Below are positions 1 to 33,698 of a stretch of DNA of 33,698 nt, piece by piece (position 1 is the first letter of the stretch; the number at the start of each line of letters is the position of its first letter). The notes below the pieces were generated by a model, which saw only the letters and a program-made list of their open reading frames with translations, was not told the DNA's origin and searched no databases. Both the position numbers and the translations under genes were made by a program. The stretch is from a virus: the IMG/VR virus record IMGVR_UViG_3300020430_000055, positions 1 through 33,698 of that record; one strand, written 5' to 3'.

Positions 1-191
1 TCGCAAAATCTAGGCGAATAGAATTCAAATAAACCAAAATACTTATCTTCAAGAAGATTGTATCGTCTATTTAATTTTTTTAAAGAGCCTTCAGTATTAT
101 CGCCACTATATTTAGCACGATAATATCTATCAAGTATCGCCCACAGTTTTGTTGAGCCGCACCTTCCTGTGTGAAGTATTATTTGTTTCAT
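1..191 (-). CDS. Sulfotransferase-like protein, N-terminal fragment (cut by window edge)
   Basis: An open frame reads from ATG at 191 leftwards off the window, giving 63 residues with no stop. It begins MKQIILHTGRCGSTKLW. A short beta strand followed by GRCGST resembles the 5'-phosphosulfate-binding loop at the N-terminus of sulfotransferase-family proteins, and the protein at 31832-32620 has the same RCGS signature in the same place. Such enzymes transfer sulfate from PAPS to a hydroxyl or amine, but neither the catalytic nor the 3'-phosphate-binding part is in view, so the substrate is unknown. The start is supported because the loop belongs at the very N-terminus. It implies a 62-base out-of-frame overlap with the upstream gene, and no clear ribosome binding site is seen. 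Confidence 0.6.
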   Translation of the reverse strand, partial: MKQIILHTGRCGSTKLWAILDRYYRAKYSGDNTEGSLKKLNRRYNLLEDKYFGLFEFYSPRFC

Positions 192-675
192 AATCTAATG
201 TTAATATAATTTCTTTTAAATGTCTTGCAACTTTTCGCCATCTTGCAATATTTTTTAGATAATGCATATTCTTAGATTTAAGTTGAGCATTTTCATCTTT
301 TAATATTTCAATTTCTCTTGCCTGATCCTCAGACAATAATTTATATTTTAGTCTTTCAGGTATCCAATACCAGTACCATTCTTCATCTTTATAATTAACT
401 TGATCTCTAAGTTCCTCAACCATTCTTTCAAGTTCTTTTATATATCCTTTATCGTCTGTTATCTTTACAGCACTCTCATTATATTTCCAAGGACTTCTAA
501 AAAATTCACATTGAGTTGGGTCTTGATCTTTTAATTTTTTTACTACCTCTTTACAATAAGTTTTTGATTGTTTAGGTTCGCTTCGCCAGTGTGTTTCTTT
601 AACAAACAAATCACTATGACCAGGACCTGATACATTACTTCTTATAAGTTTCTTTATTCTTTCATCTTCGTTCAT
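130..675 (-). CDS. Hypothetical protein with coiled-coil centre
   Basis: This 181-residue protein is not recognised. It is highly charged and mostly helical in appearance. The region around residues 78-95 (IKELERMVEELRDQV) and the region around 118-135 (AREIEILKDENAQLKSK) have heptad-like spacing typical of coiled coils, separated by an aromatic stretch (EEWYWYWIPERLKYKLL). No signal peptide or membrane segment is visible. The start overlaps the end of the desaturase gene by 14 bases, so the two are probably translated together in the late minus-strand block. Its last 20 or so residues are encoded by the same DNA as the N-terminus of the sulfotransferase-like gene, in another frame. Confidence 0.7.
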   Translation of the reverse strand: MNEDERIKKLIRSNVSGPGHSDLFVKETHWRSEPKQSKTYCKEVVKKLKDQDPTQCEFFRSPWKYNESAVKITDDKGYIKELERMVEELRDQVNYKDEEWYWYWIPERLKYKLLSEDQAREIEILKDENAQLKSKNMHYLKNIARWRKVARHLKEIILTLDYETNNTSHRKVRLNKTVGDT

Positions 676-1447
676 TCTTTTTTACCATCTCTATAAACCA
701 GATAAAAGGACTACCATCTTTATAGTCTCTCATATTCTCGTGGTGTTTATTATGAAAACCCTCGCCGCCTGATATTAATGACCACCATACACCTTCAGGG
801 TTACCCCAAGCGTGAAGTTGATTTACCATCGCTACAAATATATTAGTCAAAGCACAACCTAATACAAAGTAAACAAAAAATTCAAAACTAATTAACGCAA
901 GTAAACTGTAAAAACCTACAACTACAAAAGCAAAATACTTTTCCATAAACTTATGATATGGGTCTTTGAAATGACCTTTAAGTCTTAACATATCTCTCAT
1001 TGATACAGGAAATTTATTCCAGAAGATAGGAAATGCAGAACCTATCAGACCTATACTCATAGGATTATGTGGGTCTTGGTCTGTATCTACAAACTTATGA
1101 TGATACATATGAGCAAAAGACCAACGAATAGAAGTTGTAAACATTACCATACTTGCAATAAACAAGGCAGGTTTTTGTAGCCATGAATATGTTTGAAATT
1201 GTTTGTGTACAAAACCTCTATGCAAAAATATACCAATCGCAAATCCCATGACAAGTGAGACTGAGATAGAAGTAAATGGTGCTAAGATATAATTAACAGG
1301 ATAAAATAATAAAAAACATATCGCAAGTGTATAAATTGTAAGTTGAAAAACTGTAGACTCCCACGCTTCTCGGCCTGCTAATTTAACATTATTCAGACCT
1401 CTCTTAGTCAGTAGTGGCTTTTTTAACAGATTTAAATTCATAGACAT
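662..1447 (-). CDS. Membrane fatty-acid desaturase (delta-9 / acyl-CoA desaturase type)
   Basis: Integral membrane di-iron desaturase, expected to introduce a double bond into a fatty acyl chain. All histidine boxes of the family are present in the 261 residues: HRGFVH at 76-81, HMYHH at 113-117 followed by the characteristic DTDQDPHNP (His127), NQLHAWG (His212), and GEGFHNKHH ending in HNKHH at 232-236. Hydrophobic segments lie at about 33-75, 94-108, 172-200 and 200-210, matching the usual arrangement of paired helices with cytoplasmic His boxes. The length is short for the family (about 300 or more), mainly through short termini. It lies in the late block just after adhesin genes, overlapping both neighbours. 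Acyl-CoA versus acyl-lipid substrate and the position of the double bond cannot be read from the sequence. The intact motifs suggest an active auxiliary metabolic enzyme acting on host membrane lipids. Confidence 0.93.
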   Translation of the reverse strand: MSMNLNLLKKPLLTKRGLNNVKLAGREAWESTVFQLTIYTLAICFLLFYPVNYILAPFTSISVSLVMGFAIGIFLHRGFVHKQFQTYSWLQKPALFIASMVMFTTSIRWSFAHMYHHKFVDTDQDPHNPMSIGLIGSAFPIFWNKFPVSMRDMLRLKGHFKDPYHKFMEKYFAFVVVGFYSLLALISFEFFVYFVLGCALTNIFVAMVNQLHAWGNPEGVWWSLISGGEGFHNKHHENMRDYKDGSPFIWFIEMVKKNERR

Positions 1448-11252: not shown

Positions 11253-14200
11253 TAGACAGCCAATGCAATACCTCTTAAATCTTTTAGTCTAGGTGGATAA
11301 ACACTATTAGTTCCTTTTAGAACTGCCTTGAGTTGGAATGAAGTAAATCCTTCTAACCCATCCACACTATATTTGTATTCACTAAAGGTTTCATAATCTT
11401 CAGCAGGTGGTACTACACTATCAGAAGCGCCTGTTGAATTAAATGGTCTAAAATCAATATCTTCTATTCTTCTAGTTTCAGAACCACCAGATACTCTATA
11501 ATATAATTCTACTGAAGAAGATGATCTAATATTAGCACTAATTCTAATATCTAATGCAGTAGACTCATTATCTAATTCTATAGGCCTTGTTATATAAGCA
11601 GAACTTGAACTACCACCCACACTCTTAGTTTCAGCAACAAACTCTGGGTGGTTACCTGATGTTGGACTATCTAATCTATTTTGAGTACAGAAAATACTCT
11701 TTCTTGCCAAGTCAATTACAGGTGATACATTATCTACAGCAGATGATATTTCATATGTATTAAATAAAGATTTACTACCTGACATCTCATTTGTTTGGTT
11801 AATATCTGAGGCAACCATCTGAGGTGTGGTAAATAAAATATTTTGAAATAAATCAACTTGTTCTTTTGCTGTTGCCGCAAGTAGTGAGAATTCTGTTTGC
11901 GAACCATTTACAGATTTAGCACTAGTTGTTCTTAAAAATACATTTGTGGTACAATTAGGTAATGTCATGGTCTGAACATTCAACATAGCCTGATCTACAA
12001 TCATATTTTGTGTAGCAACTATATTAGAACCGCCGCCAGTTGATGTTGCATTTGCATTAGTTGATACTGTAATATCATACGAGTCCATAGTAATATTAGA
12101 AATACTTGTATGTGTAGTATTAATTTCACTTGCAGGAATATTATTTGTTGCAGTTGCACCTGATATGGTTACATTATTACTTGTTCCGTGCATACCATGG
12201 TTTGGTTGTCTAACTCTGATAACAGCAGAACCACTAGTTGTTTGTAAAGCATTTGTTTCTAATGATCTAGTAGGAACAGAGTCATTTACAAGAGTAACAT
12301 TACCAGTTTTAGTTACATCAAATAATGCTCTATTTAATTGAAACTTTAAGTCTTTAGTTTGATCTTCAGACCAAGTAGAGCCATTCTGAGATTTAAATAA
12401 AATACCCATTGATGGCTGTTTTGATACTAGTCTATTAGAGTCTATTGTTTTTTGACCTGTCTCACCAACATAAACATTGTAGTTTGTACTATTAGCAAGC
12501 AATACAATAGCAAACTCATCTGTATCAGGTAAATATATAGGTGCATCAAAAGTAAATCTTGTTGCAGTAGAACCATCGGTTGAAGTATTTACTGATCCTG
12601 GATTTAAAGTTTTTGTTGCCAAAGGAACAATTTGATTAGTAGGATAACCATTACTCATTGTTCTTAATTGTAAAGTTACAGGAACTCCACTATCTTTAGT
12701 TCTAAAATAAACATCTACTGAAGTTATAAAAGCACCACCCTCTGTTGGTATATTGAATGATTGTGCGAGAGGATCGAACCAGTTAAAGTTAAACCCAGCT
12801 GGAAAAAGAAAATCAAATCTTATAGGAAACTGAAGAACAGGTGCTGGTGGTAATTGTGTGCCAGCAACACTTTCTCTAGCAGTTTGACTTCTAGTTATCT
12901 CTTGAGTACCTGTTAATGTAGTTCTTCTAAATTCTATTTCTCTAGTTGAGTGAACAGTTGCTTGTCTAGTTTCTAATCTACCCTCAGCAGTGTATCTTGC
13001 TTCTGCTGATGTATTTACATCATTTTCTATTTGTGAATTAGTGCTACTATCAGTTAGTCTGAATATTCTAGTTCCTGTTCTCCATCTTGGATTTGAATCA
13101 TTTGTTGAATCAGGTATAGCAAATGTTCCTGATACAGCACCATTAGCATTTGTAATTAAAGAACCGCCAAGTGAACCTCCATCAGGAGTTACATATGCAG
13201 TAACAGCCACATTATCAAAGAACGGATAAACTCTAGTACTAGGTTTTAATCCTGTTGCAGTAAATGTAATTGTTCTACTTCTAATAAATGGAATAAATGC
13301 AAGGTTAACTAATCTATCGCCTCTAGCTCTTTGTACAATTCGAGGAACAATATCAGTTCTTACACCAGTTCTTCTTTGCCTAACTCTTGTATCTCGTCTT
13401 ATAATATCTACTCTATCTCTTTGTCTTGTTGCAGCTTCTGAACCAACTACAGTTGATGTTGTTGCACCAGTCCAGAAATCTTCCCATTCATTCCATACTG
13501 TACCTGTTGTAAACGAACCATCTCTATTTGTTGTTCTACCAGCAACAAATGTATCAAAAGCGCCTTCAGTTACAACTTGTAAATCAGGTTGCCTTCTTAC
13601 TTCTCTCCACTCATCACTTGGTGGATCTAAAGCAATTTGCCCTGACCAAATAACTACATCAAATGGATTAATATTTTCAACACCTGTAGCAAATGGTTGA
13701 GATATTACACTTGTCTCTGTAAATGGTAAAGTAAGGAAATCGCCATTCTTTTTATAATGTTGATTTGTTCTAAATGTATCTGTTAAATCAGTAGCAGAGG
13801 TACTACCAGTGTCAGTTGACTCTACTAAGGTTACAGCATCGGTAAAGTGAGGACTTCTTGCCTCACCTCTTGCCATATCCATTGCAATATTATATCCTGA
13901 ATTATTTACATCACCTATATTATGACCAGTAAAATTATCTACAATAAATCCATTTTTAAATCTATCAAAACCATCTGCATCTTGTATTTGTAAATTTTCT
14001 GCAGCTGCTTCTAATAATGATAATTGAGTATAGTATTCAACATTCTGTATTCTTCTTTCTAGTCTACCAATGTCCCTCATAGTATATCTTCTATTATCTT
14101 GAGGAATTATTTGTACATCTTCAGGATTAAAAGTATATGGTGCGATACCTAGTGTGAATATATGCATGGCATCTTCTAAATCTTCAGGTGCCACAGGATT

Positions 14201-18962: not shown

Positions 18963-20501
18963 TTAAGTAGTTATTGTCAATACATTCGCACCCGTATAAG
19001 GATTGAACAAAAATCTCTTAGGTGTAGATCCTGGGTTTAAATTTCTCCAGTTTGCAAAGTTGCCATCCGCAGGATCATAGATTTTATCAGTTGTGCATAA
19101 ACTATGAACTAAAGTTTTTAATTCTGCAGGTGTTAGTTGCGGGTTTACAGATAGTAATAAACATAAAACACCTGCAACTTGAGGGCCTGCCATACTAGTA
19201 CCTGATATATTAACTTGTTTATAACTAGAATTAGCATAATAGTTTTGACCACTTTTATCATTTGTTGTACTACAAGCACTCATAACATAAGTACCTGGGG
19301 CATAAATATCTACCGCAGGTCCGTGAACTGAATCTACACTTTTTTGATCTTGAGTTGAACTATAAGCAGTACTATCAATATTTCCAACATTAAAAGCATT
19401 TACTGAATATGGAGATGAGCCTCTATTATAATATCCTGTACCAGCAGTTATTGTATAAGTGTTATTATAATCTGAACCTGTTGTTAAATCGTGAGTATAA
19501 TAACTATTACCAGCAGAATGACAAATATGTATACCTGCATCTATCATTTCATCTAAATCAGCATCAACTGAAGCAACTCGTAAAGGTGTTTTATATGGTG
19601 CTGAACCTGGAAATGCCTGAAACTTAAATGTTCTTAATTCAGCCAGTGTATCTATATCAGTTCCTGATTTAGCAGTACCTTGATAATTTAACGCTGAAGG
19701 TAAATCATTATGAGTTGTATTATATCCCCAAGACATATTTACGACTGTTGGTCTTCCTGCATTTGCACCTGACTTAGCATTATGCCAACCTTTTATACAA
19801 TCAAAAGCATCAGCAATAGCAATACCTGTACCACTATCTCCTGTTCCTTCTAAACCTGAAAGTTTTTGTGCATATATCTTTGCCCCTTGAGCGTGACCAA
19901 AAGTTTTACCAACAGCGATACCAGCACAATGAGTGCCGTGACCATCATAGTCTCTATCGTGATTTGCATTTTGAGTTCCTGAAACGCCTGAAGCAGTATA
20001 CCAGTCCACAGTTGACCATCTATTAGAACCACTTGAGTCTTGAAACTCAGGATGATCTGTTTGAATACCACTATCTTGAACTATGAAATCTACACCAGTG
20101 CCATCTGCTGTAAAATTATAATTATCACTTGTTGTTGTTCCTGTGCCGTAATTATTTGTCTCATTTTGACACCTTATTAATCCCCAATTTTGAAATGTGC
20201 CTGTGCTACTAGTTGTTTTATTATATGTACCTGATCTTGTAGCATCATGGCCTATCACAGCGTTAGGAATTTTATCTGGTGGGACTTCGACATCTTCTAC
20301 TCTAGGATCATTTTTAAGATCCTGTGCTTCAGATTCTTCTAAACCATAGTGTGTGTTTCTAATTGATTTAGGTCTTGCATTTGCGACATCTACTGTACGA
20401 TTAGGAATTTTACCTGTGCCAGAACTGGCAGTCATCTCTGAATTAAACTGATCAGCGTCAACCCCTTTTTTGAGGGTGACTATATACTCTTTCTCCGCCA
20501 T
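18963..20501 (-). CDS. Subtilisin-like serine protease (S8 family)
   Basis: 512 residues with a complete subtilase active site: Asp143 (VQDSGIQTDHPEF), His188 (DGHGTHCAGIAVG), oxyanion Asn332 (CHSAGNS) and Ser436 (GTSMAGPQVAGV). Residues 5-75 (EYIVTLKKGVDADQF ... DLKNDPRVEDVEV) resemble an inhibitor I9 propeptide, which folds the protease and is then cleaved off. No signal peptide or membrane segment precedes it, so it should act in the phage-producing cell or as a virion part. The tail after the catalytic domain (about 475-512) is short. It lies in the baseplate cluster between a fibre gene (10-base gap) and gp8. Possible roles are maturation of fibre/baseplate proteins or digestion of host surface protein during entry. 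Catalysis is secure, substrate unknown. Confidence 0.93.
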   Translation of the reverse strand: MAEKEYIVTLKKGVDADQFNSEMTASSGTGKIPNRTVDVANARPKSIRNTHYGLEESEAQDLKNDPRVEDVEVPPDKIPNAVIGHDATRSGTYNKTTSSTGTFQNWGLIRCQNETNNYGTGTTTSDNYNFTADGTGVDFIVQDSGIQTDHPEFQDSSGSNRWSTVDWYTASGVSGTQNANHDRDYDGHGTHCAGIAVGKTFGHAQGAKIYAQKLSGLEGTGDSGTGIAIADAFDCIKGWHNAKSGANAGRPTVVNMSWGYNTTHNDLPSALNYQGTAKSGTDIDTLAELRTFKFQAFPGSAPYKTPLRVASVDADLDEMIDAGIHICHSAGNSYYTHDLTTGSDYNNTYTITAGTGYYNRGSSPYSVNAFNVGNIDSTAYSSTQDQKSVDSVHGPAVDIYAPGTYVMSACSTTNDKSGQNYYANSSYKQVNISGTSMAGPQVAGVLCLLLSVNPQLTPAELKTLVHSLCTTDKIYDPADGNFANWRNLNPGSTPKRFLFNPYTGANVLTITT

Positions 20502-27483: not shown

Positions 27484-27774
27484 TTAACCTCCTGCAAATA
27501 CATTAGAGGAACCTGCAGCCACAGAGGTGCAACCTGATATGCCATCACCTACTCTACCACAACCTAGATTATTTACTTTCACCGTAGATGAACCTGAAGC
27601 AATAGGTGCTGAGTGTGAAGGACATGGAGTCCCAGGTAATAGGTGTGATGTATTATTATCACTTTGCCTAGATACAGCAATCCCATTACAGAATACATTT
27701 GGTGAACCCTGAGCTCTAGTCATACCAGAGCAGTGTGCAACATCAGCGTCTCCTATTCTTGTTACTGCCGGCAT
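27484..27774 (-). CDS. gp5.4: PAAR-repeat central spike tip protein (gp5.4-like)
   Basis: 96 residues, almost the consensus PAAR protein: PAVTRIGDADVAHCSG at the start, GSPNVFCNGIAVSRQ, then PCPSHSAPIASGSSTVKVN and GCGRVGDGISGCTSVAAGSS. The metal ligands of the family are present (His14, His44, Cys51, His54), so it should fold as a zinc-stabilised cone capping the gp5 spike and pierce the outer membrane first. T4 gp5.4 has about the same length and also lies next to gp6. It has no C-terminal effector extension. The start overlaps the preceding stop as TAATG and the gp25 fusion starts 2 bases after its stop. Confidence 0.96.
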   Translation of the reverse strand: MPAVTRIGDADVAHCSGMTRAQGSPNVFCNGIAVSRQSDNNTSHLLPGTPCPSHSAPIASGSSTVKVNNLGCGRVGDGISGCTSVAAGSSNVFAGG

Positions 27775-29190: not shown

Positions 29191-29237
29191 TTTTACTTAC
29201 CTTACCGGTAGTGCTTGTTTATATTATACTGAGCTAA
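29181..29237 (+). CDS. Possible 18-residue hydrophobic leader peptide
   Basis: An 18-residue frame (MEIVLLTLPVVLVYIILS) begins in the last codons of the previous gene and ends on the ATG of the next as TAATG. It may be a coupling peptide that carries ribosomes to the next gene, or chance. Confidence 0.3.
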   Translation: MEIVLLTLPVVLVYIILS

Positions 29238-29413
29238 TGATCAAAGGTTGTGTAGGATTTTGCCATATACATGGTAGACTATTTGGCGAAATGTTACTGG
29301 TAAGAGGTAAAAGAGTCATACACATACCTTTATTTTATCCGTTATATATATTAATGCGAAATATCTATTCTAGCAAAATGGGTAAATTTTTATATAAAAT
29401 AAGTGAGTATTAA
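29237..29413 (+). CDS. Small basic hypothetical protein
   Basis: 58 residues (MIKGCVGFCHIHGRLF ...), with a weakly hydrophobic centre (VIHIPLFYPLYILM) and a basic C-terminus (SSKMGKFLYKISEY). Cys5, Cys9, His10 and His12 at the N-terminus form a compact CxxxCHxH cluster that could bind metal. It is joined to the preceding frame by TAATG and to the oxygenase gene by a 2-base gap. Not recognised; evidence for translation is the continuous coupling of the operon. Confidence 0.45.
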   Translation: MIKGCVGFCHIHGRLFGEMLLVRGKRVIHIPLFYPLYILMRNIYSSKMGKFLYKISEY

Positions 29414-29415
29414 TT

Positions 29416-30072
29416 ATGTTAAGAAATATATGCTGGGTATTCTCAGGCGAACACGGCCTCTCAAAAGAGCGCTGTGATTTTTTGGTTAGGCGAGGTCTTG
29501 AAGCACAGGAACAAATTGCAACCCACCAAAACGAAAATCAAACATATTCAAGTGATGATAAAGTTAGAGCAAGTCGTATATCTTGGTTACACGGTGAGGA
29601 TATCTATGAATGTGTAAGGCCATTTGTTAATAAAGCAAATGAAGAAGCGGGTTGGCGCTTTGATGTAAGACAAATAGAGAATATACAATTTACAAAATAT
29701 GGTCTAAATCAACATTACGATTGGCATATAGATGGCGACTCTGATCATTTTGCCAGTAAAGTTTTAACACCTAATAAAAAAGAATATGCTATTAATGAAA
29801 CACCTGATCATTCTATGGTTGGCATGTGCAGAAAAATAAGTGTATCTATACAACTATCAAATAGTGAAGATTATGAAGGTGGCAATATGTACTTTACAGA
29901 CTTACCTAAACATAGTCAAACAAGCGAATTACAAACATGGACAAATGAGAGATTTAGAGAACGAGGTGCAGTATTAGTTTTTCCATCTTTCATTAGACAC
30001 AAAGTAGAACCCGTTACAAAAGGCACACGATTGAGTGCTGTTGCCTGGTTTAACGGCCCACCATTCAGATAA
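29416..30072 (+). CDS. 2OG-Fe(II) dioxygenase (prolyl-4-hydroxylase / PiuC-like)
   Basis: 218 residues forming a complete 2-oxoglutarate and iron dependent oxygenase. The facial triad is HxD at His104-Asp106 (QHYDWHIDGD) and His195 (FIRHKVEPV). Arg205 (GTRLSAVAWF) is placed to bind the 2OG carboxylate. Other family marks are FTKYGLNQHYDWH, SVSIQLSNSEDYEGG and GAVLVFPSF. Such enzymes couple oxidation of 2-oxoglutarate to hydroxylation of protein, lipid or nucleic-acid substrates. T4-like marine phages often encode one or more; the substrates are mostly unknown. It has no signal peptide, so it is cytoplasmic. It is followed after 1 base by a second oxygenase of another subfamily. Confidence 0.92.
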   Translation: MLRNICWVFSGEHGLSKERCDFLVRRGLEAQEQIATHQNENQTYSSDDKVRASRISWLHGEDIYECVRPFVNKANEEAGWRFDVRQIENIQFTKYGLNQHYDWHIDGDSDHFASKVLTPNKKEYAINETPDHSMVGMCRKISVSIQLSNSEDYEGGNMYFTDLPKHSQTSELQTWTNERFRERGAVLVFPSFIRHKVEPVTKGTRLSAVAWFNGPPFR

Positions 30073-30073
30073 G

Positions 30074-30781
30074 ATGTATTTAGAATACAAAAAAGAAATT
30101 ATACCTAAAGCATTAATTCTAGAAACCATGATTCCTGAGGATATGGTTATTAGATTAAATGAATTATTAGATAAAGTTTCTGAAGATAAAAAATATAAGT
30201 TTGAACATAATGCAGCCCCAACACTTGCAGGTGTTATTAAAAAAGGATTTCAAGTTTATCTAGATCAAAAAGAATCCATCATACAAGAATATACAAACTT
30301 AACACACGAATTATCAAAAAAGTATATTCAAGAGTTTTCTATTATATCACAAAATAATTATTCTAACAAAATGATAAAGACTGAGGATATATGGTCAGTT
30401 CATCAATATGAAGGTGACTATAATCCTATTCATTCTCATAATGTGCCAGGTAGCGTACCTGGATTTGCTACCGTATTATGGACAAAAGTGCCTGAACAAT
30501 TAGAAGCAATTAGTCCAGATAAAAAATTATACGAGACAAAAGGATTGATAAGAGATTTTGGTTTAAATGGCATTACGGATGGTCACTTATGTTTTATGAC
30601 TGATCCGACAACATCAATAGACGAGATAGAAAGATTTAAATTTTCAGGAACAAGTTTAGTGCAACCAGTAGTAGGAAAGTTAGTGTTGTTTCCACTACAT
30701 ATAAATCACTTAGTTTACCCATTTGAAGGTAAAGGTGAGAGGCGATCAATCGCTAGTAATATATCTTGTACTAATGTCTAA
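30074..30781 (+). CDS. Second 2OG-Fe(II) oxygenase (phage-type, HxH variant)
   Basis: 235 residues from ATG 30074, one base after the previous stop; a frame starting upstream at 30035 overlaps the first oxygenase and is rejected. The C-terminal half has the marks of the putative 2OG-Fe(II) oxygenase family frequent in marine phages (like PF13759): NPIHSHNVPGS with His120 and His122, then GKLVLFPLHINHLVYPF with His212, and ERRSIASNI supplying the 2OG-binding Arg. The metal motif thus reads HxH...H instead of HxD...H, as is usual in that family. The N-terminal 100 residues are helical and charged. The gene ends 8 bases into the next one. It is likely to hydroxylate a different substrate from its neighbour, or the same one in sequence. 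Confidence 0.82.
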   Translation: MYLEYKKEIIPKALILETMIPEDMVIRLNELLDKVSEDKKYKFEHNAAPTLAGVIKKGFQVYLDQKESIIQEYTNLTHELSKKYIQEFSIISQNNYSNKMIKTEDIWSVHQYEGDYNPIHSHNVPGSVPGFATVLWTKVPEQLEAISPDKKLYETKGLIRDFGLNGITDGHLCFMTDPTTSIDEIERFKFSGTSLVQPVVGKLVLFPLHINHLVYPFEGKGERRSIASNISCTNV

Positions 30782-31184
30782 GAAAATATTCCCAGCAATA
30801 TCTGATAAAATAATGTTTACGGGTCCTAAAAACCCTAAGGACTTATTACCTAAATGTGTAGTACCATACAATAAAGATTTTAATATAAAGGCATATGGGT
30901 TTAGTTCTGAAGGCTATCTTATGCCTTGTTGTTGGACTATTGAAGAAGAAAATAATGATTTTGCAGAATTAAAAAAAGAAAAACTGAATATAAAAAATGT
31001 TGAAAAAATAGAAGATATTACAAATTCAGACGAGTGGAAAAACTTTGCAAATATATTAATTAATAAACCTCAACAGGCACCTAATCTGTGCTGGTTTTTC
31101 TGTGGCAAAAAAGAAAAACAAAACGAACAGTCTGTGCTATATGATACTGAGGGTAATACAAAGATACAAGGACCAAAGGCTTAG
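30774..31184 (+). CDS. Cysteine-rich protein resembling an isolated SPASM-type domain
   Basis: 136 residues from ATG 30774, overlapping the preceding gene by 8 bases; the longer frame from 30723 lies inside that gene. The cysteines are Cys28 (LPKCVVPYNKDFNI), Cys52-Cys53 (GYLMPCCWT) and Cys106/Cys110 (NLCWFFCGKK). A lone Cys, then 'YGFSSEGYLMPCC', then a late Cys pair is the pattern of the C-terminal SPASM or twitch domains that bind auxiliary Fe-S clusters in radical-SAM peptide-modifying enzymes. The CxxxCxxC radical-SAM motif itself is absent, so it cannot be such an enzyme alone. It could be a substrate-binding or electron-transfer partner, or a zinc protein. It is the last gene of the operon. 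Confidence 0.55.
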   Translation: MSKKIFPAISDKIMFTGPKNPKDLLPKCVVPYNKDFNIKAYGFSSEGYLMPCCWTIEEENNDFAELKKEKLNIKNVEKIEDITNSDEWKNFANILINKPQQAPNLCWFFCGKKEKQNEQSVLYDTEGNTKIQGPKA

Positions 31185-31230: not shown

Positions 31231-31845
31231 CTACTTCCCGTTATAATAATCAAACCAGCGTCTTACTATCTTAGGTACTATCCACTTTCTAGGATACCAA
31301 ACTTTAACACCATCTAATTGTTGCTGTCTAGTGCAACCTTTCTTTGCCCAATACTTATAACTTGGCATAATGGTACCATCTGGTAACATAAACTCAAAAC
31401 TTCTCTGTCTAGACTTCTTATCCAAATAAGAGAAACCTTTAAACATAATAGATACCGCTTTGTCTTTGTATAATTCTATCTTATGAAAGTCATCTAATTT
31501 AGTATCACTACTAAACGACCCAGGCCGCCTGTTTTTGATAGTCTTTTCGCCTGTGTGTCTATTGACTATGATTTCTTTATAACCGCCGTAAACGATAAAT
31601 GTGTGCATCCTCCATGGGTGATTATGGAAATCGGTATAGTCATTATACATTATGTTTATTACCAAATGATTTAGAATTGGTATCCAACCAAATGGGAATA
31701 TTCTGAGTATGTAGAAAAATTTGCCATTACTACCTTCGACTGCTGGCATGGCATTAACTTCGTGAATGAATAACCAGTTCTTACAAAATCGTAAAAACCA
31801 GCCATCATTTTTTTCTTGTTCTTTTATTAAATCAATGTAATTCAT
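31231..31845 (-). CDS. Cupin-like protein
   Basis: 204 residues from ATG 31845; an in-frame GTG at 31854 would add three. The central region (DFHNHPWRMHTFIVYGGYKE, then RRPGSFSSDTKLDDFHKIEL) has the HxH ... His spacing of a metal-binding cupin barrel: His-Asn-His-Pro-Trp in the first motif and DFHKIEL as the second. The C-terminus (KKGCTRQQQLDGVKVWYPRKW) is basic. Small cupins like this are common next to sugar-modifying genes in marine phages and may act as epimerases, dioxygenases or binding proteins; nothing fixes which. It overlaps the upstream sulfotransferase-like gene by 14 bases and ends 46 bases from the converging plus-strand operon. Confidence 0.65.
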   Translation of the reverse strand: MNYIDLIKEQEKNDGWFLRFCKNWLFIHEVNAMPAVEGSNGKFFYILRIFPFGWIPILNHLVINIMYNDYTDFHNHPWRMHTFIVYGGYKEIIVNRHTGEKTIKNRRPGSFSSDTKLDDFHKIELYKDKAVSIMFKGFSYLDKKSRQRSFEFMLPDGTIMPSYKYWAKKGCTRQQQLDGVKVWYPRKWIVPKIVRRWFDYYNGK

Positions 31846-32620
31846 AATTTTCACTATAACCAGTTCTTCTGATTACCTCATCCTTTTCTTCTCTAGTATA
31901 TTTATTAAGTTTAAAAGTAAACTGTCCTTCATATTGTTTTAATGGTATACCACACAATTCTTTCATATTAAATAAATCCTCATATGCCACAGTATGATCA
32001 AACTTATGTTCTCTATAACACTTCAACATAATCTCCATATGTAGTTTATGATAGTTAATATAGTAATCATCATATTTAAGATTTGGTCTTTTATATTGCA
32101 TAAACTGGCTACTCGCATTACCAATACCTGTTTGATGATACGCTAAGAAAGATAAAAAATGTTCTACAAAGTTTTTTCTATATAAAAATATTGTAGTTAG
32201 TGGTGCCCATTTTTCTAATAATTCTTTATAATTAAATCCTACACCGTAACCGTGTTGATCATCTTCATATAAATCCCAGCAGGTAAATTTAGCAACAAAA
32301 GGGCCGTTATCTACACAATGTTTTATTTGATCTTCTCTAGATAATGACCTTATCTCTCTATCTAAATTATGAAGTTTTGATAAATTTTCTCTATACTCTT
32401 TTGATGATTCTTTTATAACTTTATAAAATTGATCACCCATGTATTGTAAACCTTTTTTATTTTGCATACCCATAAGGTCTTTTTGCATACCTTCTTCCAT
32501 AACACCAGGTGCAATCTTACATAACTTTTCACCTACATTATATAAATTATAGTGTGTTTCTAGAACATGGTTTAACCAACTTGAGCCACACCTAACAGGA
32601 CATACAATCAAATAGTTCAT
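31832..32620 (-). CDS. Sulfotransferase-family protein
   Basis: 262 residues from ATG 32620, which overlaps the preceding stop as ATGA; an in-frame ATG at 32629 is an alternative. The N-terminal NYLIVCPVRCGSSWLNHVLE matches the 5'-phosphosulfate-binding loop of PAPS-dependent sulfotransferases. The later TTIFLYRKNFVEHFLSFLAY resembles the 3'-phosphate-binding segment with its Arg and Ser, and HTVAYEDLFN is the usual following strand. It should transfer sulfate to a sugar, lipid or small molecule in the cytoplasm. The catalytic base is not obvious by eye. The partial gene at the left edge has a similar start (GRCGST). Its neighbours, a carbamoyltransferase and a cupin, suggest modification of a glycan or small polar compound. 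Confidence 0.78.
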   Translation of the reverse strand: MNYLIVCPVRCGSSWLNHVLETHYNLYNVGEKLCKIAPGVMEEGMQKDLMGMQNKKGLQYMGDQFYKVIKESSKEYRENLSKLHNLDREIRSLSREDQIKHCVDNGPFVAKFTCWDLYEDDQHGYGVGFNYKELLEKWAPLTTIFLYRKNFVEHFLSFLAYHQTGIGNASSQFMQYKRPNLKYDDYYINYHKLHMEIMLKCYREHKFDHTVAYEDLFNMKELCGIPLKQYEGQFTFKLNKYTREEKDEVIRRTGYSENYELH

Positions 32621-33698
32621 CTTGTCCATGTTTTACTACCTACAACCATTTTATTGATACCTTCTGCTTCTTGAAATAGTTTTATTGCTTGTTCTCTAGT
32701 GCCACATATTGCTTCACCTTGTAAGTTTGCTGAAGTATTGAGTAATACAGGTATGCCTGTTAGTTTTTCAAACTCATCTAGTAATTCATAATATACAGGA
32801 TTCATTTCTGGTGTTACCGTATTATGTCTGCAAGTACCGTCTCTATGTGTCACCGCAGGTATACCTGAATACTTAACTTGACTATTGTACATCATAAAAG
32901 GACTATCAGTCATTTCAAAAAATCTATGTGCTTGATCTTGTTTCACACTAGCACCAAAAGGCCTCCAAGGTTCTCGTCTCTTAACTGCATTTATCTTTTG
33001 TTTACCATTTTTGATTGTTGGGTCCATAAGTATAGAACGATTACCTAACGCTCTAGGTCCTACCTCACCATGACCATTATACCATAGAACAACTTTACCG
33101 TTTGCAAGATCCTCAGCAGTTCTTTTAATAGTTTGGCTATCAGCAGTACCCCAAGATGGTTCATCACTTTGACAAAAAGGAAAGTTATCAAACTTAACTT
33201 CAAAATCATATTTCTTACCTAGATATGCTAAAGCACCTATTGATAAGCCTTCATCGCCACAATGAGGTGGTATCTTAATATCAAAACCCTCTTGTTTTAA
33301 TCTTTGATTAATTACTACATTTAAAGCAACACCGCCTGTATAACCTATCGGTTTACTTTTATCAAAGTTATCTTCAAATAACTTTATCATATAATTAACA
33401 AGTGTATTATGTGCTGATGCTACAAAATCTAACCAGTCTTTATTTTGAAATACTGCTTCACCCTCAAAAATAGATAATGGATAATTTAATAAATCAATGC
33501 CAAATAATTTACTATATTTTTCTATAACTCTACCATATGATTGTAGACCCATAATCTTACCAGGTAAATCTAGAGAGTCATTAACTTCACAGCCTGTTGA
33601 TAATCCCATTTTTAGTCCTATGGGTATCATGTAACTACCAATAGGCCAACCATCTTTACCTATATTAAATATCTTATCATTAATTAATGCATACCTAC
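32617..33698 (-). CDS. NodU/TobZ-type carbamoyltransferase, C-terminal part (cut by window edge)
   Basis: The frame runs to the right edge without a start, so the 5' end lies outside; at least 359 residues are visible of the 500-600 usual in the family. An internal ATG at 33630 is unlikely to be the true start because the upstream codons (INDKIFNIGKDGWPIG) read as family sequence. Present are the end of the TsaD/Kae1-like ATPase fold (YTGGVALNVVIN, CGDEGLSIGALAYLG) and the complete C-terminal carbamoyltransferase domain (NGHGEVGPRALGNRSIL, REPWRPFGASV, HRDGTCRHNTV, GIPVLLNTSANLQGE). Such enzymes make carbamoyl-adenylate from carbamoyl phosphate and ATP and move the carbamoyl group to a sugar hydroxyl. 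The metal-binding His residues of the N-terminal domain are outside the window. It is coupled by ATGA to the sulfotransferase-like gene. Confidence 0.9.
   Translation of the reverse strand, partial: RYALINDKIFNIGKDGWPIGSYMIPIGLKMGLSTGCEVNDSLDLPGKIMGLQSYGRVIEKYSKLFGIDLLNYPLSIFEGEAVFQNKDWLDFVASAHNTLVNYMIKLFEDNFDKSKPIGYTGGVALNVVINQRLKQEGFDIKIPPHCGDEGLSIGALAYLGKKYDFEVKFDNFPFCQSDEPSWGTADSQTIKRTAEDLANGKVVLWYNGHGEVGPRALGNRSILMDPTIKNGKQKINAVKRREPWRPFGASVKQDQAHRFFEMTDSPFMMYNSQVKYSGIPAVTHRDGTCRHNTVTPEMNPVYYELLDEFEKLTGIPVLLNTSANLQGEAICGTREQAIKLFQEAEGINKMVVGSKTWTR

Follow-up and report, generated by a model that had tools for sequence, protein, structure and literature searches.

In radical S-adenosyl-L-methionine (radical-SAM) enzymes of the SPASM/twitch type, a C-terminal extension with auxiliary clusters accepts the electron of the substrate radical or binds the substrate (parts of PMC9012708 and PMC10470005). 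The twitch cluster is held by three cysteines in MoaA and by four in BtrN, as set out in one section of PMC9012708, and in those parts of both sources that treat enzymes such as BtrN, MoaA, SuiB and anSME the auxiliary cluster belongs to the same chain as the core. Here we describe a phage family in which the putative auxiliary domain is instead the product of a separate gene, taking as our subject the gene cys on a 33,698-nucleotide stretch of viral DNA (IMG/VR record IMGVR_UViG_3300020430_000055, positions 1 to 33,698; hereafter the window). The window is a 33.7-kilobase (kb) piece of a T4-like marine phage, whose baseplate and tail genes were identified by eye. On balance, we think it probable that cys encodes the auxiliary-cluster (SPASM/twitch) half of a two-polypeptide radical-SAM enzyme of marine T4-like phages, the two halves of which are separated here.

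Radical-SAM cassettes are already known from such phages. Pelagimyophages, which are myophages of SAR11, have a variable host recognition cluster that differs by radical-SAM cassettes (PMC7029224, in part), and one T4-like genome holds 12 radical-SAM genes (PMC5332604, in part). The split between core and SPASM gene appears to be undescribed: in the main text of PMC7029224 separate SPASM genes are not mentioned and the word 'spasm' is absent, and no description of a SPASM gene split from its core was found in the literature searched, a coverage mostly outside subscription journals.

A standalone SPASM/twitch-type family and its probable radical-SAM partners

The cys gene is the last of three intact open reading frames (ORFs) on the + strand:

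29416-30072, + strand: oxyA, 218 amino acids, stop codon 30070-30072; 2-oxoglutarate (2OG)-Fe(II) oxygenase of PF13640 / PHROG 61 (PKHD-like)
30074-30781, + strand: oxyB, 235 amino acids, ATG at 30074; 2OG-Fe(II) oxygenase-like protein of PF13759 / PHROG 81
30774-31184, + strand: cys, 136 amino acids, ATG at 30774; putative standalone SPASM/twitch-type auxiliary-cluster protein

A gap of 1 base separates oxyA from oxyB, and oxyB and cys overlap by 8 bases, confirming the tight coupling noted in a sequence-only reading of the window. If GTG or TTG is accepted as a start, oxyB could begin at 30035 and cys at 30723, which we judged less likely.

A profile built from the window protein and its first relatives retrieved 145 relatives in viral contigs (80 kept), nearly all of them standalone ORFs of 94-133 amino acids. 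Pfam SPASM is matched at E<=0.1 by 28 of 32 family members (best 1.9e-5); the assignment, suggestive for the window protein alone, is therefore firm by way of its relatives. Every one of the 32 members keeps C28, C52, C53, C106, C110, G47 and P51, the family pattern being C...G-x4-CC...CxxxC; across 36 of 36 representatives, five cysteines, a glycine, a proline, a tryptophan and a phenylalanine do not vary. A two-cluster SPASM domain has a seven-cysteine motif. The family, with five invariant cysteines only, lacks that motif and has, at the level of sequence, enough cysteines for the three or four ligands of a twitch cluster. In BLASTP comparisons the window protein is 27-41% identical to the 35 other representatives, and it matches the family model at E 2.4e-49 (its sequence is in the seed), which makes it homologous to the partner proteins of the paired phages described below. 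The likeness to BtrN, MoaA, SuiB and anSME lies in a CxxxCxxC core and an auxiliary C...G-x4-C...CxxxC. The protein would bind a [4Fe-4S] cluster and form a complex with a core. The sequence-only reading had taken it for an auxiliary iron-sulfur (Fe-S) domain without a radical-SAM core, and this holds up as a prediction; cys is a 136-residue ORF rather than part of a longer enzyme, and the window contains no core.

The protein has no match in PHROG, and its profile drew only amylase matches from the PDB, at E 0.15 or worse. A direct search with the window protein found no close relatives in named phages or solved structures, and neither did its relative from contig L066 when searched against named phages. 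A genome collection contained a single relative, one member of a pair whose contig had been binned as Flavobacteriales and is possibly itself phage.

Of 104 ORFs, 88 were used for the count, after 8 ORFs longer than 200 amino acids and 8 in duplicate loci had been dropped. A short radical-SAM core lies on the same strand as 84 of these 88 standalone homologues, at -97 to 433 bases and mostly overlapping. For two of the four unpaired homologues (L012 and L015) the contig breaks off 31 bases beyond the gene, and a core is present in near-identical relatives of both, leaving the window and L001 as the only real exceptions. After clustering, 41 of 42 clusters are paired at 95% identity, 11 of 12 at 70% and 7 of 8 at 50%. 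The order is SPASM-core in 32 of the 42 clusters and core-SPASM in 9 (one is unpaired); since both orders occur, the partnership has outlived rearrangement.

The cores are about 195-272 amino acids long, with a CxxxCxxC motif and no C-terminal cluster domain; a C-terminal CxxC or CxxxC was seen in 0 of 81 cores shorter than 300 amino acids. We checked for PF04055 in 49 of 76 cys-bearing loci, hand-chosen against near-duplicates, and in L089. It was matched in 46 of the 49, and the three misses (L020, L056 and L075) have a core by a dedicated model; among aligned cores, 17 of 18 match PF04055 at E<=0.1. The reciprocal search yielded at least 583 core relatives, of which 80 were kept, on contigs partly common with the cys set, and 79 of these 80 loci have an adjacent SPASM-like ORF (at one core locus, L270, the ORF caller called no core). 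In 45 hand-chosen records, all 35 strong cores have a SPASM match no more than 65 bases away, and for each of the 38 SPASM matches a core is present at a distance of 400 bases or less. The 27 of these records that were picked regardless of pairing have both genes in 2 cases and neither in 25. Eleven weaker core matches in the 45 records, probably from other radical-SAM families, are mostly without a SPASM neighbour. As a control, we looked for the short core in the 106 marine phage loci that came from oxygenase searches (899 kb in all), and none has it.

The pair also exists in culture. In the Pelagibacter phage Mosig EXVC030M it corresponds to Mosig_00084, annotated as 'putative molybdenum cofactor biosynthesis enzyme', and Mosig_00085, a 'hypothetical protein', which overlap by 8 bases and belong to one gene cluster that also encodes nitroreductase, aminotransferase and carbamoyltransferase proteins. 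A catalogued family, phrog_21308 (radical SAM domain-containing), is a 735-position profile matched both by a split core (E 3.4e-16) and by a single-chain relative (E 6.8e-18), whereas the SPASM protein of the window matches no PHROG. Five contigs (L002, L003, L004, L019 and L034) carry two tandem SPASM-like genes ahead of one core; the enzyme may there consist of three proteins, or the core may have a choice of two interchangeable partners.

Two kinds of fusion accompany the split genes. A 357-residue protein (L036:10740-11813) is a single chain carrying both core and SPASM: its residues 23-222 are 34% identical to a split core (E 2e-34) and residues 268-343 are 38% identical to the window protein (E 4e-14). 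Its model (predicted template modelling score, pTM, 0.77) folds like known single-chain enzymes, aligning with SuiB at Z 17.9 (267 residues, 4.5 A), SkfB and MoaA at Z 16.5 each and anSME at Z 15.9; Z values for these four span 15.5-17.9, and the alignments cover nearly the whole length and extend into the C-terminal domain. In three other contigs (L055 7161-8381, L058 6555-7775 and L059 645-1865) the SPASM-like domain is instead joined to the end of the ORF that comes before it in the operon, the core being separate. Fusion can thus also result from genes merely being neighbours; the chain that unites core and SPASM is more instructive, since its order and fold match known enzymes. The portion ahead of SPASM in the three contigs is about 285 amino acids long, has no Pfam match and looks glycosyltransferase-like by eye.

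A mechanism can be proposed from these likenesses. The partner would attach where the core's partial barrel is open and contribute a [4Fe-4S] cluster, which would either accept the substrate radical's electron or bind substrate, as the fused C-terminal domain does in BtrN, MoaA and SuiB. In the phage of the window the two genes would have come apart, the SPASM gene now standing behind oxyB in a hotspot between PAAR and gp5 and the core some 38 kb off.

An unpaired core upstream of the window

No radical-SAM domain or core is present in the window or in L001, so that cys here has no adjoining partner. A walk by exact 31- and 32-base patterns, with a 31-base pattern for the left end of the window, led to the contigs L360 and L362. 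L360 (9,358 bases, from the same sample as L001) overlaps the left end of the window and extends the phage upstream, and it supplied the radical-SAM gene that the sequence-only reading had suggested seeking elsewhere in the genome:

window 1-688, no strand: overlap with L360, 99.56% identity
L360 635-1288 (about -8035 to -7382 in window coordinates), - strand: unpaired radical-SAM core, 217 amino acids, E 7.5e-78

This core is located at the far end of L360, and no SPASM gene stands beside it or anywhere on the contig. Of the two genes that flank the core, one is 14 bases away and the other overlaps it by 29 bases, and in L073 and L074 homologues of these two neighbours stand together just ahead of a core-SPASM pair. 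Together L360, the window, L001 and L362 amount to about 61.5 kb and contain a single core and a single SPASM gene, which are about 38 kb from each other, unlike the adjoining pair of Mosig. Elsewhere on L360 (3687-4523, - strand), inspection by eye shows a collagen-like protein that has GPTGPT repeats and a C-terminus resembling a chaperone.

The phylogeny is suggestive. The L360 core belongs to a 12-row clade with support of 98/97, and the window protein falls with nine of the same phages (support 90/88, unstarred), which likely places it in the same subfamily as that core. Over 26 pairs, leaving out the one in question, distances among SPASM proteins and among cores correlate with a rho of 0.74. 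The L360 core is probably the partner of cys as far as the partial genome goes, and we infer that the two serve each other in this phage.

Several observations weigh against this reading. Against PF13186 (SPASM) the window protein scores 19.9 bits, below the cut-off of 21.5 (E 9e-4). Its model (predicted local distance difference test, pLDDT, 69.9) has no significant Foldseek match, and the only rows at Z>=2 in VIA-align are those of BtrN, a twitch enzyme, with Z values of 2.8 and 2.5 that are too weak alone. An alternative placement of the window protein has a p of 0.062 in the approximately unbiased (AU) test, and the similarity ranks of the window row agree poorly, with a rho of 0.36 (p 0.07) when taken from trees and of 0.10 (p 0.61) when taken from local scores. 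L360 and the window are different contigs, and the rest of a genome seen to about 61.5 kb may hold another core or SPASM gene. Both proteins also depart from their families. Where all 55 distinct paired homologues have an aspartate (D56), the window protein has isoleucine, and where all 53 distinct paired relatives have a methionine (M146), the L360 core has alanine; near-invariant positions are changed at L50 (54 of 55) and F79 (52 of 53), respectively. One or both halves could be drifting, and we do not read the D56 and M146 changes as co-evolution.

The gene cys might instead be an orphan without a working partner, a half-enzyme cassette that is decaying or is selected for something else, and its long tree branch (2.36) fits such a fate, as do the lost aspartate and the lack of a core in both the window and L001. 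Its frame is nevertheless intact, all positions invariant in the paired homologues except that aspartate are kept, the five cysteines included, and an unpaired core is present in the same phage; we regard this outcome as unlikely. Alternatively, the split pair may be real and cys the partner of another, so far unsequenced core. Phages with pairs often have two or three cores, and only about 61.5 kb of this one has been seen, but the L360 core is itself unpaired, unlike all 35 strong cores in the 45 records, and its subfamily is where the best tree also puts cys, which leaves a different partner decidedly unlikely. We retain the separated pair, cys and the L360 core, as the preferred interpretation.

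The cys cassette and its oxygenase neighbours

Relatives of the window show that cys is an element of its own, and the following features define its surroundings:

30771-31181 (approximate), + strand: single-gene cassette, missing in L089, L090 and L091 with contiguous flanks (junction alignment)
29237-29413, + strand: 58-residue ORF, 2 bases 5' of oxyA, whose homologues stay with oxyA-oxyB even without cys
27484-27774, - strand: PAAR-like gene, left edge of the cargo hotspot that houses split core/SPASM pairs in relatives

In the contigs L089, L090 and L091 the surroundings are those of the window and the two oxygenase genes are present, oxyA at 95-96% and oxyB at 87-92% identity, and cys is absent from all three (L090 stops inside the gene after oxyB). 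The gap amounts to about 411 bases, and the flanking sequence is uninterrupted there; BLASTN flanks in L089 and L091 run over 29237/29409-30769/30770 and 31182-32239/32302 at 83-91% identity. Because it is cleanly absent between contiguous flanks in these contigs, cys is a one-gene cassette. Among 78 cys-bearing loci, the window and L001 included, the gene stands behind opposite-strand baseplate genes (gp6, gp25-like, PAAR-like) in 26 and ahead of gp5 or an Fe-S carrier gene in 27, counts to which many short loci, reaching neither flank, could not contribute. The cassette of the window occupies this PAAR-gp5 hotspot and has therefore moved into a site where relatives hold whole pairs.

The two oxygenases are ordinary members of their families, which they share with the PKHD-type hydroxylase 3dkq and with the phage 2OG oxygenases of PHROG 61 and 81. 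OxyA matches PF13640 with 46.2 bits (cut-off 27; PHROG 61, E 3.3e-30) and oxyB matches PF13759 with 38.1 bits (cut-off 27; PHROG 81, E 5.4e-19). For each enzyme, residues of the iron-ligand type are the same throughout an alignment of 10 homologues: H104, D106, H195 and R205 in oxyA, where the HxD...H...R set is present, and H120, H122, H212, R223 and R224 in oxyB. The view that these are two hydroxylases from different subfamilies stands, as predicted 2OG oxygenases of different Pfam families. Their adjacency is confined, among the loci examined, to the clade of the window. Genes of the oxyA family occur in 337 phage records, and 80 of 142 homologue loci were kept; in 85 loci with an oxyA-type gene, an oxyB-type gene was found in 11, ten of which are these same clade contigs (some fetched twice) or the window, the eleventh (L101) being a weak match more distant from the oxyA-type gene. 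The gp6 of the window has a relative of 53% identity in another contig; in 22 records with gp6 relatives (21 others plus L001), cys is present in one, L001, and oxyA is strong in four and weak in a fifth, the closest contigs by gp6 being short.

The sequence-only reading had joined the three genes in one modification pathway, possibly acting on a small protein encoded just upstream; on such a view the Fe-S protein would serve the hydroxylases by electrons or substrate binding. The trio shares a strand and its short spacing, and is kept in L001, which is near-identical to the window (99.87% over 10,923 bases) and thereby shows that it is no assembly artefact. At that identity, however, the two are one phage, and the trio has been seen once. 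The genes occur independently in other phages, which is what that reading itself had said would tell against it: L089, L090 and L091 have oxyA-oxyB at the same place without cys, cys homologues elsewhere pair with radical-SAM cores and not with 2OG enzymes, and 2OG enzymes are not in general known to need an Fe-S partner. A joint pathway is thus very improbable. The trio was rejected as a functional unit; as an assembly it is ordinary phage cargo, in which the oxygenases appear to be chance neighbours that share a transcript with cys rather than reaction partners. The upstream proteins fare no better as substrates, the homologues of the 79- and 58-residue ORFs being kept in L089-L091, which lack cys; neither ORF shows a precursor-peptide feature, and no systematic precursor search was made around the pairs.

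We give hardly any credence to a last alternative, that members of the family are small proteins that bind zinc instead of serving as Fe-S subunits. The protein is short, contains cysteines, scores weakly as SPASM and has no confident fold match on its own, but in single-chain fusions this domain forms the C-terminal part of a radical-SAM protein, its adjacency to cores is near-obligatory, and an Fe-S carrier gene (PF01521) lies in the same islands of relatives, with a homologue in 26 of 78 cys-bearing loci (in L003, at 11358-11666 on the - strand, E 4.8e-11, in the same island as the pair).

Beside the trio, on the - strand, are genes of the surface-modification type of cargo: a match to PHROG 4786, annotated as cysteine dioxygenase (31231-31854), a sulfotransferase-like protein recognized by eye (31832-32629) and a NodU/TobZ-type carbamoyltransferase (32617-33696; PF16861, E 1.2e-51). 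Just past the right end of the window, L001 encodes a third PF13759-type 2OG protein (12597-13415, - strand; E 3.9e-4, below the cut-off). By eye, a subtilisin-like serine protease lies amid the tail genes (18963-20501, - strand), and a fatty-acid-desaturase-like protein is found at 662-1447 (- strand).

Substrate and significance

A peptide target, raised in the sequence-only reading, is not supported by the neighbours of pairs elsewhere, which favour a small molecule or surface sugar. Some pairs are followed by a DegT aminotransferase (PF01041, 4.5e-84 in L066), and PP-loop genes and nitroreductases are present in 54 and 41 of 78 cys-bearing loci, respectively. BtrN oxidises an aminocyclitol. 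From these neighbours and the BtrN reaction we infer that a sugar (a surface sugar) or other small molecule is more likely as the substrate than a peptide.

We put at about even the chances that in marine T4-like phages the auxiliary [4Fe-4S] domain is a separate, interchangeable subunit that in the phage of the window still acts in trans across about 38 kb. The roles of auxiliary clusters have been difficult to pin down, since the domain cannot be taken away without breaking the chain; if the proposal is true, a separate auxiliary protein could be omitted, re-added, mutated or swapped from phage to phage while the core is left as it is. The proposal would also mean that annotators miss half of such enzymes, as in Mosig, where one half is recorded as a molybdenum cofactor enzyme and the other as a hypothetical protein, and it would give a role to many 'hypothetical proteins' of marine phages.

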